Of a stretch of DNA of 64,000 bases, positions 23,132 to 45,621 are shown one piece after another. The notes below the pieces were generated by a model. It was not told where the DNA came from. It saw nothing but the letters and a program-made list of their open reading frames with translations, and made no database searches. Source of the stretch: Myxococcaceae bacterium. GTDB taxonomy: Bacteria; Myxococcota; Myxococcia; Myxococcales; Myxococcaceae. The stretch is taken from contig JAEUJQ010000060.1 in the NCBI GenBank assembly GCA_016793095.1, positions 62,001 to 126,000 of the forward strand, written 5' to 3'. Position numbers and translations under genes: made by a program. Numbering within the stretch: the first letter of the stretch is position 1; every line of letters starts with the position of its first letter.

Positions 23132-25687
23132 TCAGCCGGGAGTGACGAGCAGCGCGTAGCCGTCGCCGGTGAGCTCGACGGCGCCCTGACCTGCGAAGCC
23201 GGTGAGGCGTGGAGAGACGCGCCCGAACCAGCCCACGAGGCGTTGGAGCGGCACCACCATCGGCTCTCCCGCGGGGATCGCCAGCGCCTTCATCGCGCCG
23301 CCGAGCTGCAGCAGCACGCGGCCATCGCCCGAGAGGTGCACCAGGTCGAGGCGCAGCTTCTGGGCCTCGTCAGTCAGCGTTCCGTGCTCGAAGCCGATGG
23401 TCTCCTCGAAGCCGAAGACGCGCTCCTCGCGCAGGTACGCGCTCTCGTCGTTGAGATCGAGCGCGTGGAAGCGTGCGCCGCCCATCTCGAGGTGGACGAC
23501 GCCGTGCCCGACGAGGCGCTGCACCTGATTCGCCCCGTCGCCGAATGGCTGCTCCGTGGCCCGGCCCCTCGCCCGCTTCGGCTCGGGCGTCGCAGTGACG
23601 CTGCCGACGATGGCGACGAGGTTCGACATGCGGCTGAGCATCTGCCCGTTGACGGTGATCGCCAGGCCCTGGGGGCCGACGTGGAACGGACCGGCGTTTG
23701 GTTGCTCGATGTCGCTGGTGGTCTCGCCGAGCTCCACGAGGGTGCGCGCCTGCATCGGCGAGTAGGTGTGTGGTGCAGAGGGCGGGGGACGTGGTGGCGG
23801 CGGTGCGTCGGGAGAGAACTGCGAGAGCGGTTGGGCGACCCACGCCTGATCCGGAGGCGCCTCTGCGCTCGCCTCGGGCGCGGCGGGCTCAGCGGAGCGC
23901 GTCTCCTCCGTCATCCGGCCATAGGGCTCGGTCGGCGAGTCGGTGAAGGGGGGCAGGGCGCCGTCGGGCTCGGTCCAGGGCTGTTCTGCGGCCGCGGACG
24001 CTTCCACCGCCGGGTGCGCCGCTGACGCCGTCCAGGTCTGCTCGCTGGCGTCGGTTCCCGTCGCGGGAGGCTGCTCGGCCCAGGACTGAGCCTCCGCCCC
24101 GGCCGATTCTGGAGAGTCGTACGCACCTTCGGCGCTGGAGGGCGGCTCAGTGTACGGCTGCTCAGTGTAGGTCTGCTCGCTGGGCGGCTGTTCGGCGTAT
24201 GGCTGATCGCCGTACGGCTGCTCCGTGTATGCCTGCTCTGTGTAGGGCTGCTCGGTGTACGGCTGCTCGGAAGACGCCTGCTCCGCGTACGCCTGGTCGG
24301 TGGACGCCTGATCGGCGGAGTGCTGCTCCGCGGGCGGCTGCTCGGTGGTCGCCTGCTCCGCATACGCTTGATCGGAGTACTGCTGCTCCGCGGGCTGGCC
24401 GAGGGAGGCCTCGGCGTACGCCGTGACTGGCTCCTGTTGCTCTCGAGCCGGCGGTTCCACGGCGTCGGTCGGCGCCACGTCCCCGAAGTCCAGCTCCCGG
24501 GCCGGATCGGGTGGCACGTTCCAGCCCAGGTCCTGCGCCGCCGGTTGCGCTTCCGTCGCCGCGCCCTTCGCCGCGTGCCACATCGGATCGTCCGCGGCCG
24601 GATCATGGGTCGACTCCATGGCGTGTTCGGGACGGTATGGTGGGGGCTCGAGCGGAACGTCGGCAGCGACAGCGTCGCGGGGCGGCGGCGTCATGCCCGA
24701 GGCTGCGTCCCAGCTGTTCACCAGCGGGGTGCTCCACTTCTTCGGCGCCGGGACGAACTCAGCGTTGGCCTCGATCACCGGCAGCTCGTCGGCGGCAGCT
24801 TCGGTGACGGGGAGCGCTTCGGTGACCTCGATCTCGGCCGAGGAGCTCCCCTCGACGTCAGCCGGCGCGGGGGCCTCGTCCATGCCGAACTGCGCCCCCC
24901 AGTCGCGGTCGAGGCGGGGGCCCGAGGGAGCGGGCGGAGGGACCTCGACCTCAGCCGGCATCGGCTCGGTCTCGATCAACTGAGGCTCTGGGGGCGGCGG
25001 AGGGGGAGGCGGCTCGCCGGGCATCGCCAGCTCCCCCGAGACGACCTCCTCGTCGCTCATGACCTCGATCTCCTCCTCGGCCGCGGGTGGAGGGGGGAGT
25101 GGTGGCGGTCGCGTGACGTCGACGGTGGGAAGCGCCTCGGCGGGCCTGGCCGTCACCGCGTGGGCAGTCGCGGGCGGGGCTGAGGGAAGCACCATCGCTG
25201 GCGTCGTCTCGACCTTCGTCGCGAGCGCCCGGCTCATCTTCTCGGCCATCTGATCGCTGCCCGCGAGCACGAAGTGCTCACGCGCTTTGCCGTAGTCGCC
25301 TGCCTGCGCCAACGCGAGCCCGAGGTAGTTGTGGGCCTTCTTGTGTTCGGGATCGAGATCAGTCGCCGTCTCGAACTCCTTGATGCAGCGGGGCAGGTTA
25401 TTCGTCTTCAGGTACACCAGCCCCAGGTTGACGCGCAGGGTCGGGTCCACCGGGTTCTCGCGCACGAGCCGCTCGTAGATGTCGGACGCCTCGTCGAAGA
25501 GGCCGAGCTTGAAGTACGTGAGGCCGAGCAGGTTCTGCGCCTTCTCGTTCTTCGGCGAGAGCTGGTTCGCCTTCTCGAGGTGAGCGCGCGCGTCGACGAT
25601 CTTCCCGGCCGCGAGCAGCTCTCCGCCCTTGTAGAGGGCCGAGAGGAACTCCTCTTCGTTCGCTTGCGCCCGCGCCGTCGTGGCCAT
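23132..25687 (-). CDS. TPR protein with Tyr/Glu/Gln-rich repeat region and C-terminal AIM24-like domain
   Basis: 851 residues. Residues 8-150 form three to four tetratricopeptide repeats (LLGLTYFKLGLFDEASDIYE, VNLGLVYLKTNNLPRCIKEF, and more). A long low-complexity region follows (about 170-640), rich in Pro, Glu and Ala. Inside it is an array of five-residue units of the type YTEQP/YAEQA. The last about 190 residues (VELGETTSDIEQPNAGPFHV to the end) match the AIM24-type beta-rich fold, with GDGRVLLQLGG and VVPLQRLVGWFGRVSP near its end. There is no signal peptide. Its role is unknown. It lies between a lytic transglycosylase gene and pgsA in one operon, which hints at an envelope-related function. 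Confidence 0.85.
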   Translation of the reverse strand: MATTARAQANEEEFLSALYKGGELLAAGKIVDARAHLEKANQLSPKNEKAQNLLGLTYFKLGLFDEASDIYERLVRENPVDPTLRVNLGLVYLKTNNLPRCIKEFETATDLDPEHKKAHNYLGLALAQAGDYGKAREHFVLAGSDQMAEKMSRALATKVETTPAMVLPSAPPATAHAVTARPAEALPTVDVTRPPPLPPPPAAEEEIEVMSDEEVVSGELAMPGEPPPPPPPPEPQLIETEPMPAEVEVPPPAPSGPRLDRDWGAQFGMDEAPAPADVEGSSSAEIEVTEALPVTEAAADELPVIEANAEFVPAPKKWSTPLVNSWDAASGMTPPPRDAVAADVPLEPPPYRPEHAMESTHDPAADDPMWHAAKGAATEAQPAAQDLGWNVPPDPARELDFGDVAPTDAVEPPAREQQEPVTAYAEASLGQPAEQQYSDQAYAEQATTEQPPAEQHSADQASTDQAYAEQASSEQPYTEQPYTEQAYTEQPYGDQPYAEQPPSEQTYTEQPYTEPPSSAEGAYDSPESAGAEAQSWAEQPPATGTDASEQTWTASAAHPAVEASAAAEQPWTEPDGALPPFTDSPTEPYGRMTEETRSAEPAAPEASAEAPPDQAWVAQPLSQFSPDAPPPPRPPPSAPHTYSPMQARTLVELGETTSDIEQPNAGPFHVGPQGLAITVNGQMLSRMSNLVAIVGSVTATPEPKRARGRATEQPFGDGANQVQRLVGHGVVHLEMGGARFHALDLNDESAYLREERVFGFEETIGFEHGTLTDEAQKLRLDLVHLSGDGRVLLQLGGAMKALAIPAGEPMVVPLQRLVGWFGRVSPRLTGFAGQGAVELTGDGYALLVTPG
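24140..24395 (-). repeat. Degenerate 15-bp repeat array (Y-T/A-E-Q-P/A codons)
   Basis: A run of imperfect 15-bp units, seen on the plus strand as tgctcggtgtacggc-like steps, encodes consecutive pentapeptides such as YTEQP, YTEQA, YGDQP and YAEQP in the low-complexity centre of the TPR/AIM24 protein. Confidence 0.75.
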
Positions 25688-37699: not shown

Positions 37700-38485
37700 T
37701 CAGCCGTGCGCGAGCCGCCCGTACTCGCGCATCCACTGCTCCTCGTCCGCGGTGAGCGGGCCCTTCTCGAGCGCCTTCAGGTTCTCCTCGAGCTGTGCGC
37801 GCGACGCGGGGCCGCTCAGCACCACGTCGACGTTCGGGTTCGAGAGGCAGAAGCGATAGCAGTCGCCCCCGGTCATCGTGGGTCCGGTCCAGCCCTTCGG
37901 CTGCTTGAGCAGCTTGCGCCACGAGGTCGCCGTGTAGGCCACCACCGAGGGCTTGCGCTTGTCGAGGTGCGGGAAGATGTCCCTCTCGGCGCCCGGGTGC
38001 GCCGCGTTGTAGCGGATCATGAAGAGATCGAGCTGCGAGTCCTCGGCGAGGCGCCCCGCGCGGGGTCGATCGTGAATCGACACCCCGATGGAGCGCACCT
38101 TGCCTTCCTGCTTCAGCTTCATCAACGCCTCGATCGTGCCCGGCGTCCAGGCGGACATCTTGCTGAGCCAGAAGAGCTGGAAGACGTCGATGTAGTCGGT
38201 GTCGAAGAGCTTCAGCAGGGCCTCGCAGCCGCGGCGCACGGAGCCGCCGAAGAAGCCCAGCGTGGGGCCACCGGCGAGGATGTACTTCTCGCGGTTCGCC
38301 TTGAAGGCCTGCTTGAGGACGGGGATCGCGAAGCCCGTCTTGAGGCGCTGGTGGAAGAAGTAGGTGACGCCGCGGTCGAGCGCCGCCGAGAGGCCGTTCG
38401 CGTCGATGCCGTAGTTGAGCGCCAGCCCGAGCCGGTGGGTCGGCTTGTTCACGGCCTTGAGCGTCCGGTGGGTGAAGTCAGTCAT
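37700..38485 (-). CDS. Aldo/keto-reductase-fold protein lacking apparent catalytic tetrad
   Basis: 261 residues. The fold is recognised from DYIDVFQLFWLSKMSAW, EGKVRSIGVSIHD and NPNVDVVLSGPASRAQLEEN. By eye the catalytic residues of the family are replaced: Asp of 'FDTA' is Phe44, Tyr of 'YG' is Lys49, Lys of 'ATK' is Gly73 and the active-site His of 'LHW' is Phe105. It may therefore be a pseudo-enzyme or use another mechanism. The ATG overlaps the stop of a kinase-gene remnant upstream, and the thioredoxin gene follows after 15 bp. Confidence 0.85.
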   Translation of the reverse strand: MTDFTHRTLKAVNKPTHRLGLALNYGIDANGLSAALDRGVTYFFHQRLKTGFAIPVLKQAFKANREKYILAGGPTLGFFGGSVRRGCEALLKLFDTDYIDVFQLFWLSKMSAWTPGTIEALMKLKQEGKVRSIGVSIHDRPRAGRLAEDSQLDLFMIRYNAAHPGAERDIFPHLDKRKPSVVAYTATSWRKLLKQPKGWTGPTMTGGDCYRFCLSNPNVDVVLSGPASRAQLEENLKALEKGPLTADEEQWMREYGRLAHG

Positions 38486-38590
38486 GGCGCCTCCGCGCGA
38501 TCCGACGACGAGGGGCGTTCAGCATTCCTCGCGCGCACCCACTCGGCTACCGAGAACTCGTCGGCTGCCCGTTCGCGGAGGGCACAAGAG
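38482..38590 (-). pseudogene. Remnant of the 3' end of a Ser/Thr protein kinase gene
   Basis: About 35 in-frame codons that translate to ALRERAADEFSVAEWVRARN and end in RAEAP, followed by a TGA overlapping the ATG of the aldo/keto-reductase-fold gene. The C-terminus of the intact kinase at 41628-42539 has the same series (ALRERAADEFSVAEWVRARK, ending AEGP). Within it 59 bp (38525-38583 and 41674-41732) differ at only two positions. No kinase catalytic core remains here. The reading frame continues upstream only as antisense shadow of the neighbouring plus-strand gene. Confidence 0.75.
38525..38583 (-). repeat. Copy 1 of 59-bp direct repeat (kinase 3' end)
   Basis: ttcctcgcgcgcacccactc... matches 41674-41732 in the same orientation, with two mismatches in 59 bp. 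The repeats flank the 38683-41631 gene. Confidence 0.85.
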
Positions 38591-38682
38591 GACACGCGAA
38601 CCTCCGTTTCCTTTGGACACGCCGGCTCAGAGCGGTGACGTTTCCTCGTTCGTCCAGCCCCACCCGAGCCTAGGCTCCACGC

Positions 38683-41631
38683 ATGAGCTTCGCCGTGGCC
38701 CTGTCCGTGCTCGCTCAGGTGTCGGTCTGGCCAACCGTTCCCCAGCTGCAGATCCCCGTCTGTACGAGCGACGCTGGAGACCAGCGCGACGTGAGCGCCA
38801 CGATTGACGGCGAGGGTGGCGCCTTCATCGTGTACACCGACGGTGCGACCCACGCGGACGCGCGGGGAACGCTCCGGGCTCAGCATGTCGATGCCTGGGG
38901 CCGAATCACCTGGGGAAGTCCCTCGTCGGTGGGGGTTCTCCTCGAGCCCGCCACCGGAGAGACTCAGGCCGAACGTCCCCGCGCTGTGAGCGATGGCGTT
39001 GGAGGCATGTACGTGATGTGGATGGACCCGTCCATCGGCAGCTACGGGGTGCTCCGCATGGGCTCGGACGCTGGCATGGCCTACCGGGTCCGCAACCTCT
39101 TGTCGGGACAGAACCCGTGGCACGCCGCCATGGCTGCCGATCGCGACGGGGGCGCCTGGCTTCTCGGCGCTGGTAACCAGCTGCGGCTGGTTCGATTGGG
39201 CCACGCGGCGCCTTCGAACATCATTGCGGTGCACAACGCGATTGTGGGGGGCGCCCGTCTGAGTGTCGATGAGGAGGGCAGGGCCCTGATCGTCTACGCC
39301 GTGGGACTCGGCGGCCCGGTGCGTTTTGCGCGCGCCGTGGCCAACGGGATGAGCCTCTCGGTCGATCGAACCGTTGATCTCCCGATGGAACTGGCCGCGG
39401 GCGACGTCGCGTCGGACGGCCTCGGCGGTGCCTGGGTGGCCTTCTCGGGACGGCCCGGTGGCCCCGGCACCAACTACGGCGTCTGGTTGAGGCACCTCCT
39501 CGCCGACGGAGGCACCGATCTGCTGCCTGATGGAGGTCAGAACCTCGCGCCAGACGGCGGGGTCGCGGTCTTTCCCGATGGAGGGGCTCTGGGGCTGATT
39601 CCCCTCACGAACCTGACCAGCGTGACCAACGCCGTCGGAGTCCGGCTCGCAACCGATCCACTCGGAGGGGTGTTCGTCTACTGGCTCCTGCCCTTCAGTG
39701 GTTCGGACGGCATTCCCAGCCTGGCTCACGTGACCGACGGGACTATCGACTGGTCGAGGCAGCTGGCCAGCTCGGTCGGGCTCCCCCTCGAAGTGAATCG
39801 CTCGCAGACGAACTCACCCTTCGTGGTGATGCCGGATGGGACAGCGGTCGTTCACCTTCTCCCCAACGGCTCGACTCAGTCGCTGATGCTCGTGCCTCGA
39901 ACGGGCACCGCGTTTCTCCTGCCAAACGACATCGCCACTGGCGGCACCCAGTTGAACACCCGCTCGCTCGTTCCCGCCGGGACCGGGGTGATCGTCGCCT
40001 TCGACGATATCTTCGGGAACAACGCCAATGGCGACATCTTCGCCAAGCGCTTCGAGCTCACCACGCAGACGCTGGGCGGTGATGGAGGCTTCGGGGGTGG
40101 GATCGCCGGCGGGGCAGCAGGAGGAATCGCTGGCGGCGCAGGAGGCGGTGGCGCGGCAGGAGGGAGCTCGGGTGGAGTTGCGGGTGGCGGCGCTGGTGGC
40201 GCCACAGCGGGAGGGTCTTCAGGCGGCAGCGCCGGCGGAGTTGCAGGTGGCACCGCTGGTGGTGCCGTGGCCGGAGGGACCTCTGGTGGAGTTGCAGGTG
40301 GCACCGCTGGTGGTGCCGTGGCCGGAGGGACCTCTGGTGGAGTTGCAGGTGGCACCGCTGGTGGTGCCGTGGCCGGAGGGACCTCTGGTGGAGTTGCGGG
40401 TGGCACCGCTGGTGGTGCTGTGGCCGGAGGGACCTCTGGTGGAGTTGCGGGTGGCACCGCTGGTGGTGCTGTGGTGGCCGGGGGGAGCTCCGGTGGAGTC
40501 GGCGGCGGCAGCTCGGGTGGCGCCAGTGGCGGCGCGGGTGGGACGGCCGGTGGGGCGGGCGGCGCGGCGGGGGGAAGGCCCCCGGACGCGGGCGACGGAG
40601 ACGGCCCCGCTTCGCTCTACTCGTGGAAGCCGTGCGGCTGTCAGTCGAGTCCCACGCTTGGACTGCTGGGGCTGGGTGCGCTCGGCTTCTGGCGGCGCCG
40701 CCGCAAGAACGCCGGTCATCTCAGAGCAGCCGCGCTCGCGGGCATCGTGGGCATCTCCACGGTCGCGTCGGCTGGCGAGCGCCCGAGGCTCGCCTTCATC
40801 GGCGTCGAAGCCCAGGCGGGCTTGAGCCCTGGCCTCGCCCGTGCCATCAGCGACTACCTCACCACCGAGCTCGCGAGGCTCGATCTCTATCAGGTCACCA
40901 CTCCCCAGGACGTCTCAGCGCTCCTCTCCACGGAGCGTCAGGCGCAGTTGCTGGGCTGTGCAGAGGGCGGATGCATCGGGGAGCTCGCAGGGGCGCTCAA
41001 CGCCGATCGGATCCTCACTGCGAGCATTGCGAAGCTCGACAACTCCCTCCTCTTGAACTTGACCCTCCTCGACGGGCGCAAGGGTCTCGCAGTGAGCCGC
41101 AGCGGACGCCGGGTGCAGTCGGGAGGCCTCGACGGGTTGCTCGACGCCGCGCCCGGAGCGCTGAGGGAACTCATCGAGCGTGACACTGCAGTGCGCATCG
41201 AGCGCCCCGCGCCCGCCCCCGATGGGGTGCCAGCCGTGTCCGTCGTCGCGGGCCTCCGGGGCGAGCTGGAGGTGCTGGGCCTCGGCATCGCTCCCGCCGC
41301 GTTCGTCACCGTGCGGTTCGGGATGATCGCCGGGGCGGCTGCGCTCATCGCCGTACCGTCCTTCGCCGCGCGGCTCGAGGCCAGGCTGGTCCCACTATCT
41401 CCCGGCCGCTGGAACCCCTACGCAGCCCTCGGCGCCACCTTCTTCGTGAAGCCCGAGTACCTGGGCGCGGCTGGAGCGACCCTGGCTCCCCGCGGCGCGG
41501 TGGGGCTGGGGGTGGCGCTCGGACCGGTTGAGCTCTCTGCCGACGCCGCCCTCGAGTACGGTCTGTTCGCTCCGGCGTCCTACCGCCCGCTGGCCGTCGT
41601 CCTGGGGCTGGGCGCCGGCTGGAGATTCTAG
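38683..41631 (+). CDS. Secreted protein with internal MYXO-CTERM-like signal fused to a CsgG/TolB-N-like and beta-barrel region
   Basis: 982 residues. The N-terminus (MSFAVALSVLAQVSVW) is signal-like. Residues about 25-460 are a beta-rich, probably propeller-type domain. A Gly/Ala-rich linker at about 465-640 contains five 17-residue repeats. Residues 649-675 form a MYXO-CTERM-type signal: Cys651/Cys653, a hydrophobic run (LGLLGLGALGFW) and Arg-rich RRRRK. Instead of ending, the protein continues with a second signal-like segment (AAALAGIVGISTVASAG), a domain like those with CsgG/TolB-N-type folds (LAFIGVEAQAGLSPGLARAI ... CAEGGCIGELAGALNADRIL) and a C-terminal beta-strand array ending in GWRF, as in outer-membrane barrels. 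No in-frame stop or good internal start separates the two halves. Confidence 0.78.
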   Translation: MSFAVALSVLAQVSVWPTVPQLQIPVCTSDAGDQRDVSATIDGEGGAFIVYTDGATHADARGTLRAQHVDAWGRITWGSPSSVGVLLEPATGETQAERPRAVSDGVGGMYVMWMDPSIGSYGVLRMGSDAGMAYRVRNLLSGQNPWHAAMAADRDGGAWLLGAGNQLRLVRLGHAAPSNIIAVHNAIVGGARLSVDEEGRALIVYAVGLGGPVRFARAVANGMSLSVDRTVDLPMELAAGDVASDGLGGAWVAFSGRPGGPGTNYGVWLRHLLADGGTDLLPDGGQNLAPDGGVAVFPDGGALGLIPLTNLTSVTNAVGVRLATDPLGGVFVYWLLPFSGSDGIPSLAHVTDGTIDWSRQLASSVGLPLEVNRSQTNSPFVVMPDGTAVVHLLPNGSTQSLMLVPRTGTAFLLPNDIATGGTQLNTRSLVPAGTGVIVAFDDIFGNNANGDIFAKRFELTTQTLGGDGGFGGGIAGGAAGGIAGGAGGGGAAGGSSGGVAGGGAGGATAGGSSGGSAGGVAGGTAGGAVAGGTSGGVAGGTAGGAVAGGTSGGVAGGTAGGAVAGGTSGGVAGGTAGGAVAGGTSGGVAGGTAGGAVVAGGSSGGVGGGSSGGASGGAGGTAGGAGGAAGGRPPDAGDGDGPASLYSWKPCGCQSSPTLGLLGLGALGFWRRRRKNAGHLRAAALAGIVGISTVASAGERPRLAFIGVEAQAGLSPGLARAISDYLTTELARLDLYQVTTPQDVSALLSTERQAQLLGCAEGGCIGELAGALNADRILTASIAKLDNSLLLNLTLLDGRKGLAVSRSGRRVQSGGLDGLLDAAPGALRELIERDTAVRIERPAPAPDGVPAVSVVAGLRGELEVLGLGIAPAAFVTVRFGMIAGAAALIAVPSFAARLEARLVPLSPGRWNPYAALGATFFVKPEYLGAAGATLAPRGAVGLGVALGPVELSADAALEYGLFAPASYRPLAVVLGLGAGWRF
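40234..40491 (+). repeat. Five tandem 51-bp repeats (GGVAGGTAGGAVAGGTS)
   Basis: Units start at 40234, 40285, 40336, 40387 and 40438. Each encodes GGVAGGTAGGAVAGGTS, and the last carries a 3-bp insertion (extra Val) and ends GGSS. Units 2 and 3 are nearly identical at the nucleotide level, so recent copy-number change is likely. Confidence 0.93.
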
Positions 41632-42539
41632 GGGCCTTCGGCGTGCTCCATCGACGCTGCGTTGCGTCCGGCCTTCCTCGCGCGCACCCACTCGGCCACC
41701 GAGAACTCGTCGGCTGCTCGTTCGCGGAGGGCGCGGGTGAGGTCGACGAGGCTCCGCGGTCGTCGGGTCGGGTCCTTCTCGAGCATCGGGGCCACGAGGT
41801 CATGCAGCGCGGCCGGGATAGCCTCGAGAGAGGGCGGCGCCTCGCGAATGCGCTCCATCGTCTCGACTGGCGTCGCGCCGTCGAAGGGCCGCGCGCCCGT
41901 CAACGCCTCGACGAAGAGGATCCCCGCCGAGAAGACGTCGCTCGCGGGCGAGAGCGGCCGGCCGGCCACCTGCTCAGGAGACATGTACGCGTACGAGCCC
42001 TTCCGCACCCCGCCCCGGGTCTGATCCTTCAGCAGCGTGGCCTTCGCGATGCCGAAGTCGCCCAGCTTCACCTCGCCTGCGAGGGAGACGAGCACGTTGG
42101 TGGCGCTGACGTCGCGGTGCACGAGGCCCAGCGGCCGGCCCTGCTCGTCGGTCTGCTCGTGCAGGAAGGCGAGGGCGGTGAGCACCTCGGCGAGCGCGAA
42201 GCAGGCGATCGGCTCCGGCGCGGGCTGGCCGGCGAGCAGTCGCGAGAGGTCGGCGCCAGCGACGAAGTCCAGACGCGCCCAGGGCCGTCCGTCGACCGCG
42301 CCGAAGTCGTGCGCCTGCACCAGGCCCCGGTGGACCAGCCTCGCCTGCAACCTCGCTTCGTCGAGGAACATCCGCTCCCAGGTCGACTCGCCGACGTACT
42401 CCTCGCGCAGCAGCTTGAGGGCGATCGTCTTCTCGAAGCCGCTGGCCCCGAAGGCGGTGGCCTTGAACACCTCGGCCATGCCGCCCACGCCGACGCGCTC
42501 GAGCAGCTCGAAAGGACCGAACCCGCAGGGCAGTCGCAC
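41628..42539 (-). CDS. Serine/threonine protein kinase
   Basis: 303 residues from a GTG at 42539, which gives a kinase beginning just before the P-loop. Longer in-frame starts would run through antisense of the neighbouring Gly-rich gene. Kinase motifs are complete: glycine loop GVGGMAEVFKA, catalytic Lys in IALKLL, alpha-C Glu, HRDVSATN, DFG (LGDFGIAKA) and MSPEQ. There is no transmembrane or sensor domain, so it is soluble. The stop overlaps the stop of the convergent 982-residue gene. Its C-terminal 35 codons are duplicated upstream of the aldo/keto-reductase-fold gene. A PP2C phosphatase and an FHA activator lie within 5 kb. Confidence 0.93.
   Translation of the reverse strand: MRLPCGFGPFELLERVGVGGMAEVFKATAFGASGFEKTIALKLLREEYVGESTWERMFLDEARLQARLVHRGLVQAHDFGAVDGRPWARLDFVAGADLSRLLAGQPAPEPIACFALAEVLTALAFLHEQTDEQGRPLGLVHRDVSATNVLVSLAGEVKLGDFGIAKATLLKDQTRGGVRKGSYAYMSPEQVAGRPLSPASDVFSAGILFVEALTGARPFDGATPVETMERIREAPPSLEAIPAALHDLVAPMLEKDPTRRPRSLVDLTRALRERAADEFSVAEWVRARKAGRNAASMEHAEGP
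41674..41732 (-). repeat. Copy 2 of 59-bp direct repeat (inside kinase gene)
   Basis: Second copy of the repeat at 38525-38583, here in its intact coding context near the 3' end of the kinase gene. Confidence 0.85.
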
Positions 42540-42672
42540 CCGATGACGATAGCCGGCGTTGAGCGACGGCGCTTCCGCGCTGAAGGCTCGCCGGGCGCCA
42601 GGGGTGCCAACGTGAGGGCCACGAGCGTATGATCCTTGCGAGGTGCCAGTGCGCGAGGGAACGCTGCGAGTG

Positions 42673-44277
42673 ATGGCTCGGCGCGGACCGCTGGTGCTGG
42701 TGTGCTGCCTCGGCGCCATGGCTGGTTGCCTCTTGCCGGTTGCCGAAGAACACGATGGCGGAACGCAGCCTGTTGCCGGCGGAGGAGCGGGAGCCAGCTC
42801 ATCGGGCGGCGGCTTCGCTGGCGGCGCGGCAGGCGGTTCGTCCGGGGGCTTTGCGGCCGGCACCGCAGGCGGATCATCGGGTGGAAGCGTCGCGGGCGGT
42901 GCAGGTGCAGGCGCAGGGGGAGGCGGCGGCGCGGCAGGCGGTGCGTCCGGGGGCTTCGCGGCCGGCACCGCAGGCGGATCATCGGGTGGAAGCGTCGCGG
43001 GCGGCACAGGTGCAGGCGCAGGGGGAGGCGGCGGCACGGCAGGCGGTGCGTCCGGGGGCTTCGCGGCCGGCACCGCAGGCGGATCATCGGGTGGAAGCGT
43101 CGCGGGCGGTGCAGGTGCTGGCGCAGGGGGAGGCGGGTTTGCGGGCGGGGCTGGAGGTGGCTTCGGAGGCGCCGGAGCGGGCGGGGCAGGCGGTGGCGCT
43201 GACGCGGGGTGCCGCCTGAGCTTCTCGCCGACGAGCTACACCGCTGGGAACAGCCCGGCGACCGTGGCCCTCGCCGACCTCAACGGGGACGGGTTGCTCG
43301 ATGTGATTGCGCTCAATGAGTTCAGCGCAACGGCGAGTCTGTTCTTGAACGCGGGCGGTGGTGCGCTCGCGCTCCCCACCACCTGGCCGACCGGGCCCCA
43401 ACCGATCGGCGCAGCGGTCGGGGATCTGAACGGTGACTCGCGACCCGATCTCGTGCTTTCGAACTACTCAGGGAACACGTTCAGCGTGCTCCTCACGAGC
43501 CCCGACGCCGGCTTCCTCGCACCGATGGCGTTCTCGACGGGCCTCGGGCCGATTTCAGTCGCGCTGGGAGATCTCGACCGCGATGGCCGCCTCGATGTCG
43601 CGGTCGCGAACTGGCTCGCTGACTCAGTGAGTGTGTTCGGCGGGCTCGACGGCGGCCAATTCGCGCCCCGCTCGACTGTACCGGTGATGGGCAGCCACCC
43701 GTACTGCGTCGTCCTGAGCGATCTGGACGGCGACGGGCTGGCGGACGTCACGACCGCGAACGGAGTGAGCGCGAATGTGTCGGTGATGATCAACCAGAGC
43801 TCATGGACCTTCCAGCCCGCGCGTCTCGTGCCGACAGGGTTGACCAGCAACTGGGTCGCAGCAGGTGACCTCGACGATGACGGGCTGCTCGATCTCGCAG
43901 TCGCCAATGCGGGCACGGGTCAAGCCATGGCCAGCCTCTCGGTGCTCCGCAACACGGACGCTGGCCACTTCAGCGTCTCGGGCACGTACCAGACCGGCCA
44001 GTACCTGCGGACGGTGCGGATCGGCGACGTGAACGGCGACCGGCTGCCCGATCTCGTGGTCGCGAATCACGCTGACGGCACCATCGGCCTCTTCGCCAAC
44101 GCAGACGGCGGTGTCTTCGGTTCACAGCAACTGATCGGCCCGGTCATCGCGGGTGCGGTCCATCTGGAGCTCGGCGACCTCGACGGCGATGGGCGGCTTG
44201 ACGTGGTGGTTGGCACCTACAGCCCCAACGTCTCTGGCGGGGAGATCACGGTGCTTCTCCAGCGTTGTGGTCCCTGA
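42673..44277 (+). CDS. Lipoprotein with Gly-rich repeat linker and FG-GAP/VCBS-type propeller
   Basis: 534 residues from the ATG at 42673, with a lipoprotein signal ending GAMAGC. An alternative GTG lies 30 bp upstream. Residues about 35-185 are a Gly/Ala/Ser linker containing three 35-residue repeats. From about 190 to the end there are at least five FG-GAP/VCBS-like blades with Asp-rich calcium-loop motifs (ADLNGDGLLDVIALN, GDLNGDSRPDLVLSN, GDLDRDGRLDVAVAN, SDLDGDGLADVTTAN, GDVNGDRLPDLVVAN). This predicts a seven-blade-type surface propeller that may bind partners or calcium. It lies 12 bp before the FHA/sigma-54 activator gene and is divergent from the kinase. Confidence 0.88.
   Translation: MARRGPLVLVCCLGAMAGCLLPVAEEHDGGTQPVAGGGAGASSSGGGFAGGAAGGSSGGFAAGTAGGSSGGSVAGGAGAGAGGGGGAAGGASGGFAAGTAGGSSGGSVAGGTGAGAGGGGGTAGGASGGFAAGTAGGSSGGSVAGGAGAGAGGGGFAGGAGGGFGGAGAGGAGGGADAGCRLSFSPTSYTAGNSPATVALADLNGDGLLDVIALNEFSATASLFLNAGGGALALPTTWPTGPQPIGAAVGDLNGDSRPDLVLSNYSGNTFSVLLTSPDAGFLAPMAFSTGLGPISVALGDLDRDGRLDVAVANWLADSVSVFGGLDGGQFAPRSTVPVMGSHPYCVVLSDLDGDGLADVTTANGVSANVSVMINQSSWTFQPARLVPTGLTSNWVAAGDLDDDGLLDLAVANAGTGQAMASLSVLRNTDAGHFSVSGTYQTGQYLRTVRIGDVNGDRLPDLVVANHADGTIGLFANADGGVFGSQQLIGPVIAGAVHLELGDLDGDGRLDVVVGTYSPNVSGGEITVLLQRCGP
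42841..43137 (+). repeat. Three tandem 105-bp repeats (35-residue Gly-rich units)
   Basis: Units start at 42841, 42946 and 43051 with tccgggggct. The first two are nearly identical, and the third is truncated after about 87 bp. They encode the SGGFAAGTAGGSSGGSVAGG-type linker. Confidence 0.9.
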
Positions 44278-44289
44278 CGCGAGGTCTTC

Positions 44290-45621
44290 GTGGCGCACAC
44301 GCGGGTATCGACACAGCTGGACGAGACGGGCTCACCGCTGCGCTGCCAGCTCGTGGTGGTCGACGGGCCTGACGCCGGCCGCGCGGTGCCGCTCGACGTG
44401 GCGCGGGTCGCAGGCACCGCCTCGACGGTCGATCTCACGCTGGCCGACGAGCGCGTCTCGTCGAAGCACGTGCGCGTGACGCCGGCGGGCGCCCGGTTCC
44501 TGGTGAAGGACCTCGACAGCACCAACGGCACCTTCTTCGAGGGCTCGCGGGTGCAGGAGCTCGAGGTGTCGCCGGGTGCGTCGCTCAAGCTCGGGCGAAC
44601 GACGCTGCGCATCGAGCCGCAGCCGAGGGCGCTCGAGGTGCGGCCGAGCGCGGCCAGGCGGTTCGGCGAGCTCGTCGGCGAGAGCCTGGCGATGCGCGAG
44701 ATCTTCGCGGTGCTCGAGCTCACCGCGCAGAGCGACGCCACGGTGCTGGTGACGGGTGAGACCGGCACGGGCAAGGAGCTGGTCGCCCGGTCGCTCCACG
44801 AGGCCAGCACGCGGCGCAAGGGCCCGTTCGTCGCGGTGGACTGCGGCGCGCTGCCCGAGAGCCTGCTCGACAGCGAGCTCTTCGGGCACGTGAAGGGCGC
44901 GTTCACCGGTGCCCAGAGCAATCGCAAGGGCGCCTTCGCGCGCGCAGACGGGGGCACGCTGTTCCTCGATGAGCTGGGGCGGGTGAGCGCGGCGGTGCAG
45001 GCGAAGCTCCTGCGCGTGCTCGAGGAGCGGAAGGTGAAGCCGGTCGGGGCGGACACCGAGCGGCCGGTGGACGTTCGGGTGGTGGCCGCGACGCCAGCGG
45101 GCCTCGACGCCGCGATCGCGAGCGGGGCCTTCCGGTCCGACCTCTACTACCGGCTCTCGGTGCTGGCGTTCGAGCTGCCGCCGCTGCGCAGCCGGCGTGA
45201 AGACATTCCGCTCATCGTCGCCGAGCTGCTGCGCCGCCGTGGTCTCGAGCCGGACGGCGTCGAGGGCCCCAACCTCGACCGACTGAAGAGCCACCGCTGG
45301 CCCGGCAACGTGCGCGAGCTGCGAAACGTGATCGATCGCGCGCTCGTGCTGTCACCCGGCGCCCGGCGGTTCGGGGAGCTGAAGCTCTCGCTCGAGGCGT
45401 CCGTCTCCACGGCCGACGTGCCCGGCGTGAGAACCGATCTGCCGTACAAGGAGTCGAAGGAAGCGGTGCTCGAGGTGTTCGAGCGCACCTACCTGCGGGA
45501 GCTCATGGCCCGGCATCGCGACAACCTGTCGGCGGCGGCGCGCGAGGCCGGCGTCGATCGCAAGCACTGGCGCACGCTCTTGAAGAAGCACGGCCTCTTC
45601 GACGGCCCGGACGAGGACTGA
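44290..45621 (+). CDS. Sigma-54-dependent activator with N-terminal FHA domain
   Basis: 443 residues from a GTG 12 bp after the propeller gene. Residues 20-118 form an FHA domain (VDGPDAGRAVPLDV, ADERVSSKHVRV, DLDSTNGTFFEGS), the phosphothreonine-reading input. The AAA+ core has Walker A GETGTGKE, the sigma-54-contacting GAFTGA at 203-208, Walker B (GGTLFLDELGR) and the Arg-finger region. A C-terminal helix-turn-helix (DNLSAAAREAGVDRKHWRTL) follows. Such proteins replace the two-component receiver by phospho-Thr sensing and are typical of myxobacteria. Partner kinases are probably the neighbouring Ser/Thr kinase or others. Confidence 0.95.
   Translation: MAHTRVSTQLDETGSPLRCQLVVVDGPDAGRAVPLDVARVAGTASTVDLTLADERVSSKHVRVTPAGARFLVKDLDSTNGTFFEGSRVQELEVSPGASLKLGRTTLRIEPQPRALEVRPSAARRFGELVGESLAMREIFAVLELTAQSDATVLVTGETGTGKELVARSLHEASTRRKGPFVAVDCGALPESLLDSELFGHVKGAFTGAQSNRKGAFARADGGTLFLDELGRVSAAVQAKLLRVLEERKVKPVGADTERPVDVRVVAATPAGLDAAIASGAFRSDLYYRLSVLAFELPPLRSRREDIPLIVAELLRRRGLEPDGVEGPNLDRLKSHRWPGNVRELRNVIDRALVLSPGARRFGELKLSLEASVSTADVPGVRTDLPYKESKEAVLEVFERTYLRELMARHRDNLSAAAREAGVDRKHWRTLLKKHGLFDGPDED

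Follow-up and report, generated by a model that had tools for sequence, protein, structure and literature searches.

The window analyzed here is a 64-kb stretch within contig C30 of the source genome, G000 (an 8.8-Mb draft in 93 contigs). Along the window lie an aldo/keto-reductase-fold gene (AKR; − strand), a kinase 3′ stump (−), a 982-codon gene (+), an intact Ser/Thr kinase gene (−), an FG-GAP gene (+), and an FHA/sigma-54 activator gene (+) (Table 1). In translation, the stump ends in ...ALRERAADEFSVAEWVRARNAERPSSSDRAEAP and the intact kinase in ...ALRERAADEFSVAEWVRARKAGRNAASMEHAEGP, each followed by its stop. The kinase TAG and the stop of the 982-codon gene share the tetranucleotide CTAG. 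The TGA of the stump overlaps the AKR start within ATGA (38482-38485), just as the initial annotation had stated.

Table 1. Features of the kinase-AKR locus, in window coordinates
Feature	Position	Strand	Evidence or remark
Aldo/keto-reductase-fold gene (AKR)	37700..38485	−	Pfam PF00248, E 5e-16
Kinase 3′ stump, possible 37-codon leader ORF	38482..38595	−	Tail resembles kinase orthologs
Direct repeat of 59 bp, AKR-side copy	38525..38583		57/59
Inserted segment, ~3,090 bp between repeat copies (borders inferred)	38584..41673		Absent between kinase and AKR in G003 to G006
GGAGG, 5 nt ahead of leader GTG, within insert	38601..38605	−	
Inserted 982-codon gene	38683..41631	+	Secreted N-part, Gly-rich tract, internal MYXO-CTERM tag, second signal peptide, domain B
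Internal MYXO-CTERM tag, SLYSWKPCGC...GFWRRRRK	40612..40707	+	TIGR03901.2, 26.4 bits (cut-off 20), isolated 60-aa piece
Domain B: TolB-N/LpoB-like half, then weakly predicted 8-strand beta-barrel half	40774..41631	+	
Present tail of intact kinase, last 15 codons and stop	41628..41673	−	Ortholog tails not matched above chance (371/4000)
Ser/Thr protein kinase (start codon inferred)	41628..42539	−	Pfam PF00069, E 1.6e-34
Direct repeat of 59 bp, copy inside intact kinase	41674..41732		57/59
Second inserted gene (FG-GAP, Gly-rich), between kinase and activator	42643..44277	+	No target duplication seen
FHA/sigma-54 activator, ancestral divergent neighbor of kinase	44290..45621	+	

The two kinase ends had been described as a direct repeat with 2 mismatches in 59 bp, and our comparison agrees (57 of 59 bases identical). 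BLAST lengthens the match to 38515-38583 and 41664-41732 (92.8% of 69 bases [64/69]; E = 7e-22), and ungapped extension carries it to 88% of 81 bases. The annotated kinase fragment of ∼35 codons is real, but its recently duplicated part amounts to about 59 to 69 bp, not all 35 codons. Besides two Gly-tract arrays, this is the sole repeat of at least 30 bp and at least 80% identity in the window. A search of the whole genome with positions 38480-38660 gave 12 matches at E ≤ 1, among which only the two repeat sites fell below 0.2 (the third had an E value of 0.21); no third copy was found below that value, and kinase genes of G000 do not commonly end in this stretch. The two copies each represent a kinase 3′ end and lie on the − strand; within the repeat, uninterrupted identity extends over 23 bp at most. 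The insert is flanked by direct copies of the kinase end, while four relatives (G003 to G006) have one kinase end at this place. Self-comparison of each of seven related loci revealed no further scar like it.

To establish the ancestral gene order, we searched 60 genomes for AKR (E ≤ 1e-20) and found matches in 18, including six of the seven genomes of the genus (G000 and G002 to G006; not G001). Kinase orthologs with 75 to 79% identity directly adjoin AKR in four of the five other AKR-bearing genomes of the genus (G003, G004, G005, and G006), with the kinase stop and AKR start overlapping as ATGA; the fifth, G002, has a kinase 3′ stump only. The ATGA overlap is kept in 6/6 AKR-bearing genomes of the genus, G000 included. 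These findings confirm the earlier proposal that the kinase once abutted AKR, and no relative had the same layout without kinase-AKR adjacency. The divergent neighbor of the kinase is the FHA/sigma-54 activator in G003, G004, and G005; G006 carries the activator on a different contig, and its kinase has an amidase-like gene (named by eye) upstream instead. The identities of the kinase, AKR, and activator share one ranking (G006, G005/G003, G004), which agrees with a kinase inherited vertically. In G018, G023, G032, and G012, which lie outside the genus, the kinase accompanies the activator but not AKR.

The 982-codon gene does not lie between the kinase and AKR in G003 to G006, and its N-terminal part was found nowhere else in these genomes; of 40 related genomes searched with its N-terminal 469 residues, the 39 besides G000 gave no match at E ≤ 0.001. 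As the relatives have the two genes adjoined without this gene, and its N-part has no strong match elsewhere, the insertion is derived in G000. We rejected the reverse polarity, a deletion in the relatives, since four of them have the intact overlap and the stump of the fifth is without the gene. That fifth genome, G002, has no kinase ortholog (best kinase match, 39%). Its stump of ∼67 codons (L064, G002:C220, 1758-1982) lies directly upstream of AKR with the ATGA and shows 42% identity over 62 residues (E = 6e-5); it is probably the product of an independent event.

To find out which kinase end is original, we compared the repeat block and the tail that follows it. The stump and the intact kinase are identical at 57/59 positions in the block versus 26/43 in the tail (P = 3.8e-6 by Fisher's test). 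Among 14 other pairs compared, 13 had values of 0.68 to 0.76 in the block and 0.56 to 0.78 in the tail, and the close pair G003-G005 had 0.96 and 1.00, respectively, which indicates that block and tail normally diverge alike. We then scored each tail against the tails of G006, G005, and G004 together, with 4000 random window segments as the null. None of the 4000 segments matched the three ortholog tails as well as the stump tail did, versus 371 for the present kinase tail; for the single relatives (G006, G005, and G004), the corresponding counts were 0, 22, and 230 for the stump and 1649, 389, and 928 for the kinase. The two tails weakly resemble each other (37/4000 random segments as good), which leaves room for the present one being a kinase tail that has diverged rather than insert DNA. 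The simplest reading of these sequence comparisons is that the stump is the original kinase end, displaced, and that the tail of the intact kinase has been replaced or has strongly diverged. The initial annotation had the kinase and AKR split by duplication or insertion of the 982-codon gene or of a kinase-plus-gene module. The insertion stands, but duplication of the module is rejected on the tail comparison, as the ancestral tail is on the stump and not on the present kinase.

We propose, at a probability of roughly 70%, that a ∼3.1-kb segment with the 982-codon gene was inserted near the kinase 3′ end in the G000 lineage and that ∼59 bp of the target was copied in the process, most likely through illegitimate recombination. 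Synteny shows that the ancestral order was FHA/sigma-54 activator, kinase, and AKR and that the kinase stop codon and the AKR start codon overlapped. A segment carrying a single two-part surface-protein gene entered near the kinase 3′ end, and the sequence shows the copied kinase stretch on either side of it. The original last 15 kinase codons would have remained beside AKR, and the kinase would have gained a new 15-codon tail from the insert side, as the tail comparison suggests. The joining itself may have involved a staggered break that was filled in and joined, or one end may have been held by homology. The stump would then have been retained through the ribosome-binding site and stop/start overlap of AKR. 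This layout, with the repeat on both sides and the gene absent between kinase and AKR in relatives, fits the scar with target-like duplication that had been suggested at the outset.

The insert holds one gene and no transposase or integrase, and no Pfam family was found in the 982-codon ORF at E ≤ 0.001 (only matches below the cut-off at E ≤ 5, and no PHROG). In a search for terminal inverted repeats, the insert ends were no more alike than expected by chance (143/2000 random segments as good). Transposon target duplications span 2 to 14 bp, and the 59-bp duplication is far longer. A transposon or insertion sequence was rejected, as there is neither a transposase nor inverted repeats. The repeat is at one insert side, and the junction at 38584 shows no homology. 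The 59 bp are best read as a duplicated target that would have arisen by illegitimate or homology-assisted recombination. G000 encodes Ku (C38:36245-36781; 165.7 bits [cut-off, 25]), which makes end-joining possible, although the length of the duplication counts against fill-in during end-joining. Among 195 phylum genomes searched for a donor of the segment, the N-part of the gene matched strongly in G000 only; weak partial matches (E = 1e-6 to 9e-4) were found in 3 of the other 194. A phage origin of the gene was rejected, as the N-part had no match in viral contigs. A scan of 38400-41900 predicted a single weak promoter and a single weak terminator, neither of them at a junction, and a search of 36-46 kb for structured RNA gave no Rfam match. 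The first half of the insert is slightly lower in G+C (0.66 to 0.69) than most flanks, which is not decisive. Overall, the insertion is well preserved but ordinary, with a long target duplication.

The chief rival reading is that the present tail is a diverged donor kinase tail. A related strain would already have had a kinase allele of its own followed by the 982-codon gene, and recombination within the kinase 3′ end would have brought in the donor tail, with the far end joined illegitimately. The two tails do differ like orthologs of different species (0.60 versus 0.56 to 0.78), they are weakly similar to each other (37/4000, as given above), and the process is known in transformable bacteria and in E. 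coli conjugation (PMC3240628, PMC5361080, PMC2884548). However, the present kinase tail shows no match to the three ortholog tails above chance, and no donor locus turned up among the genomes searched (40 relatives; 195 phylum genomes). We regard this course of events as possible, though with odds well below those of a copied target.

The remaining explanations fare worse. Tandem duplication of the whole kinase, with the AKR-side copy eroding to its 3′ end as the 982-codon gene was inserted, gains some plausibility from G002, whose stump shows that an AKR-side kinase can erode in this way. It requires three events, however, leaves the 97% block identity versus 60% tail identity unexplained, and has no counterpart in a tandem ortholog pair in the four relatives with adjacency, and we consider it improbable. 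A site-specific integrase might have placed a small element and restored the 3′ end of the gene, in the manner of islands integrating at tRNA genes; such integrations do leave a restored host gene and, beyond the insert, the displaced 3′ end. Yet the insert encodes no integrase, the window contains no tRNA, and the site is found only twice in the genome, and an integrase island was rejected as very unlikely. Similarly slight is the chance that the assembly joined unrelated pieces at the repeat. The genome is a draft in 93 contigs, but the 23-bp exact run is too short for a typical k-mer misassembly, and the gene order on both sides is shared with relatives.

Under the preferred reading, insertion with a copied target, the stump may have been retained because the ribosome-binding site and the stop/start overlap of AKR lie in it. 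In the relatives, the GGAG-type ribosome-binding site of AKR sits within the last kinase codons, and the stump has GGAGG shortly upstream of ATGA; the present kinase tail also has GGAG, but at a greater distance from its end. A GTG at 38593-38595 opens a frame of 37 codons through the stump, and the insert supplies a GGAGG 5 bases ahead of this in-frame GTG, a configuration equaled by 111/20,000 random junctions in the window. The stump may be translated as a 37-codon leader, a post hoc reading. The stump of G002 has no such ribosome-binding site ahead of its in-frame starts. More generally, in operons with stop/start overlaps, the 3′ end of the first gene might be kept by the ribosome-binding site of the second gene inside it, survive breakage or displacement, and become recruitable as a translated leader. 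That the stump described here (37 codons, with an insert-supplied site) and that of G002 (∼67 codons) are two independent cases in the genus is a tentative suggestion. The retained, possibly translated stump and the adjoining two-part surface protein are the more unusual features of the locus.

The 982-codon ORF apparently encodes two exported proteins in a single reading frame. One would be the secreted N-part with its Gly-rich tract and MYXO-CTERM tag; the other, after it, would consist of a second signal peptide (recognized by eye) and domain B. The tag, with its Cys signature, transmembrane helix, and Arg cluster, occupies residues 644 to 675 of 982, in the middle of the ORF and not at the C terminus; it was detected by TIGR03901.2 in the 60-aa piece alone, and a scan of the whole ORF did not return this model. 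The AlphaFold model of domain B (23 sequences) had a mean pLDDT of 71. Its first half is confident and matched TolB, LpoB, PelC, and FlgT in Foldseek (E = 3e-7 to 5e-4). The second half consists of low-confidence strands (pLDDT of about 40 to 60) with weak matches to OmpA-like barrels, and a barrel is therefore only suggested. A sequence search of domain B against solved structures gave three chains at E ≤ 1 (best, 0.0049), to designed proteins, and was not used.

The same layout of internal tag, second signal peptide, and domain B occurs on C34 of G000 (L093, 1394 codons), in G021 (L102, 1604 codons), and at L101 (1420 codons). The combination at 40594-40773, in which a tag and a second signal peptide are joined to the TolB/LpoB-like half and predicted barrel in one ORF, is thus seen in four genes from three genomes. 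The tags of L093 and L101 pass TIGR03382, the second MYXO-CTERM model, and that of L094 (G021) passes none. Of 68 named domain B loci, two (L101 and L102) were judged to show the layout from in-frame sequence read by eye; the others are mostly short stand-alone secreted proteins, with a few longer ORFs. Natural insertions in rice that are flanked by tandem duplications have reportedly been attributed to "patch-mediated" break repair (Vaughn and Bennetzen 2014, by its title); the locus resembles this plant case, as far as the title tells, in combining an insertion with a copied target stretch.

Homology-facilitated illegitimate recombination is an established route (PMC3240628, PMC5361080). In a bacterial genome comparison, much small-segment diversity was ascribed to illegitimate recombination, with some 10% of variable segments having flanking direct repeats, most of them <30 bp (PMC2884548). 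The insertion may resemble the homology-facilitated process, in which foreign DNA enters the chromosome with the help of homology at one end and none at the other (PMC3240628, PMC5361080, PMC2884548). It differs in that its main trace is a copied 59-bp target, the homologous end being inferable only with a donor. Like the Vibrio T6SS and Rhs arrays described in PMC5361080, the locus has an incoming module that displaced the 3′ end of a resident gene, which is kept downstream. Unlike in the arrays of that account, the host gene is intact, because its end was copied, and there is no effector/immunity pair.

The two-part internal MYXO-CTERM layout is rare and has already been reported, and the inserted gene is uncommon. 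The one paper retrieved by a literature search with the phrase "internal MYXO-CTERM" (PMC11980579) describes such internal motifs as rare and gives MXAN_5598 as an example, which its authors compare to TraA plus TraB. Like MXAN_5598 as presented there, the inserted gene encodes a surface protein with a mid-ORF MYXO-CTERM tag, followed by an outer-membrane barrel protein, here predicted. It differs from that protein as there described: its predicted barrel follows a TolB/LpoB-like half, it gave no OmpA family match, and no close relative of its N-part turned up in the genomes searched. The genes described here add examples of such two-part proteins and would allow a test of whether a single precursor is processed by myxosortase and signal peptidase into a pair of exported proteins.

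The old gene order, the displaced kinase end, the duplicated target, and the altered tail can all be made out in the sequence of this locus, which shows that a surface-protein gene can enter between overlapping genes and break neither. A second Gly-rich gene, with FG-GAP repeats (region 42543-44284), separates the kinase from the divergent activator as a further insertion; in relatives, the starts of these two genes are only ∼10 to 25 bp apart. No target duplication was found around it. In G003 (L062, 14286-16523), a TonB-receptor-like gene (named by eye) lies between AKR and a thioredoxin gene, so insertions into this operon are not confined to a single lineage. Upstream of the solute-binding gene, G002, G003, and G005 (loci L061, L062, and L064) have a gene resembling a metallo-hydrolase (named by eye) that is absent there in the window and in G006. 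Elsewhere in the window, positions 24141-24388 hold a tandem array with a repeat unit of 15 bp (alternatively 45 or 60) and ∼16 copies at a 70% match.
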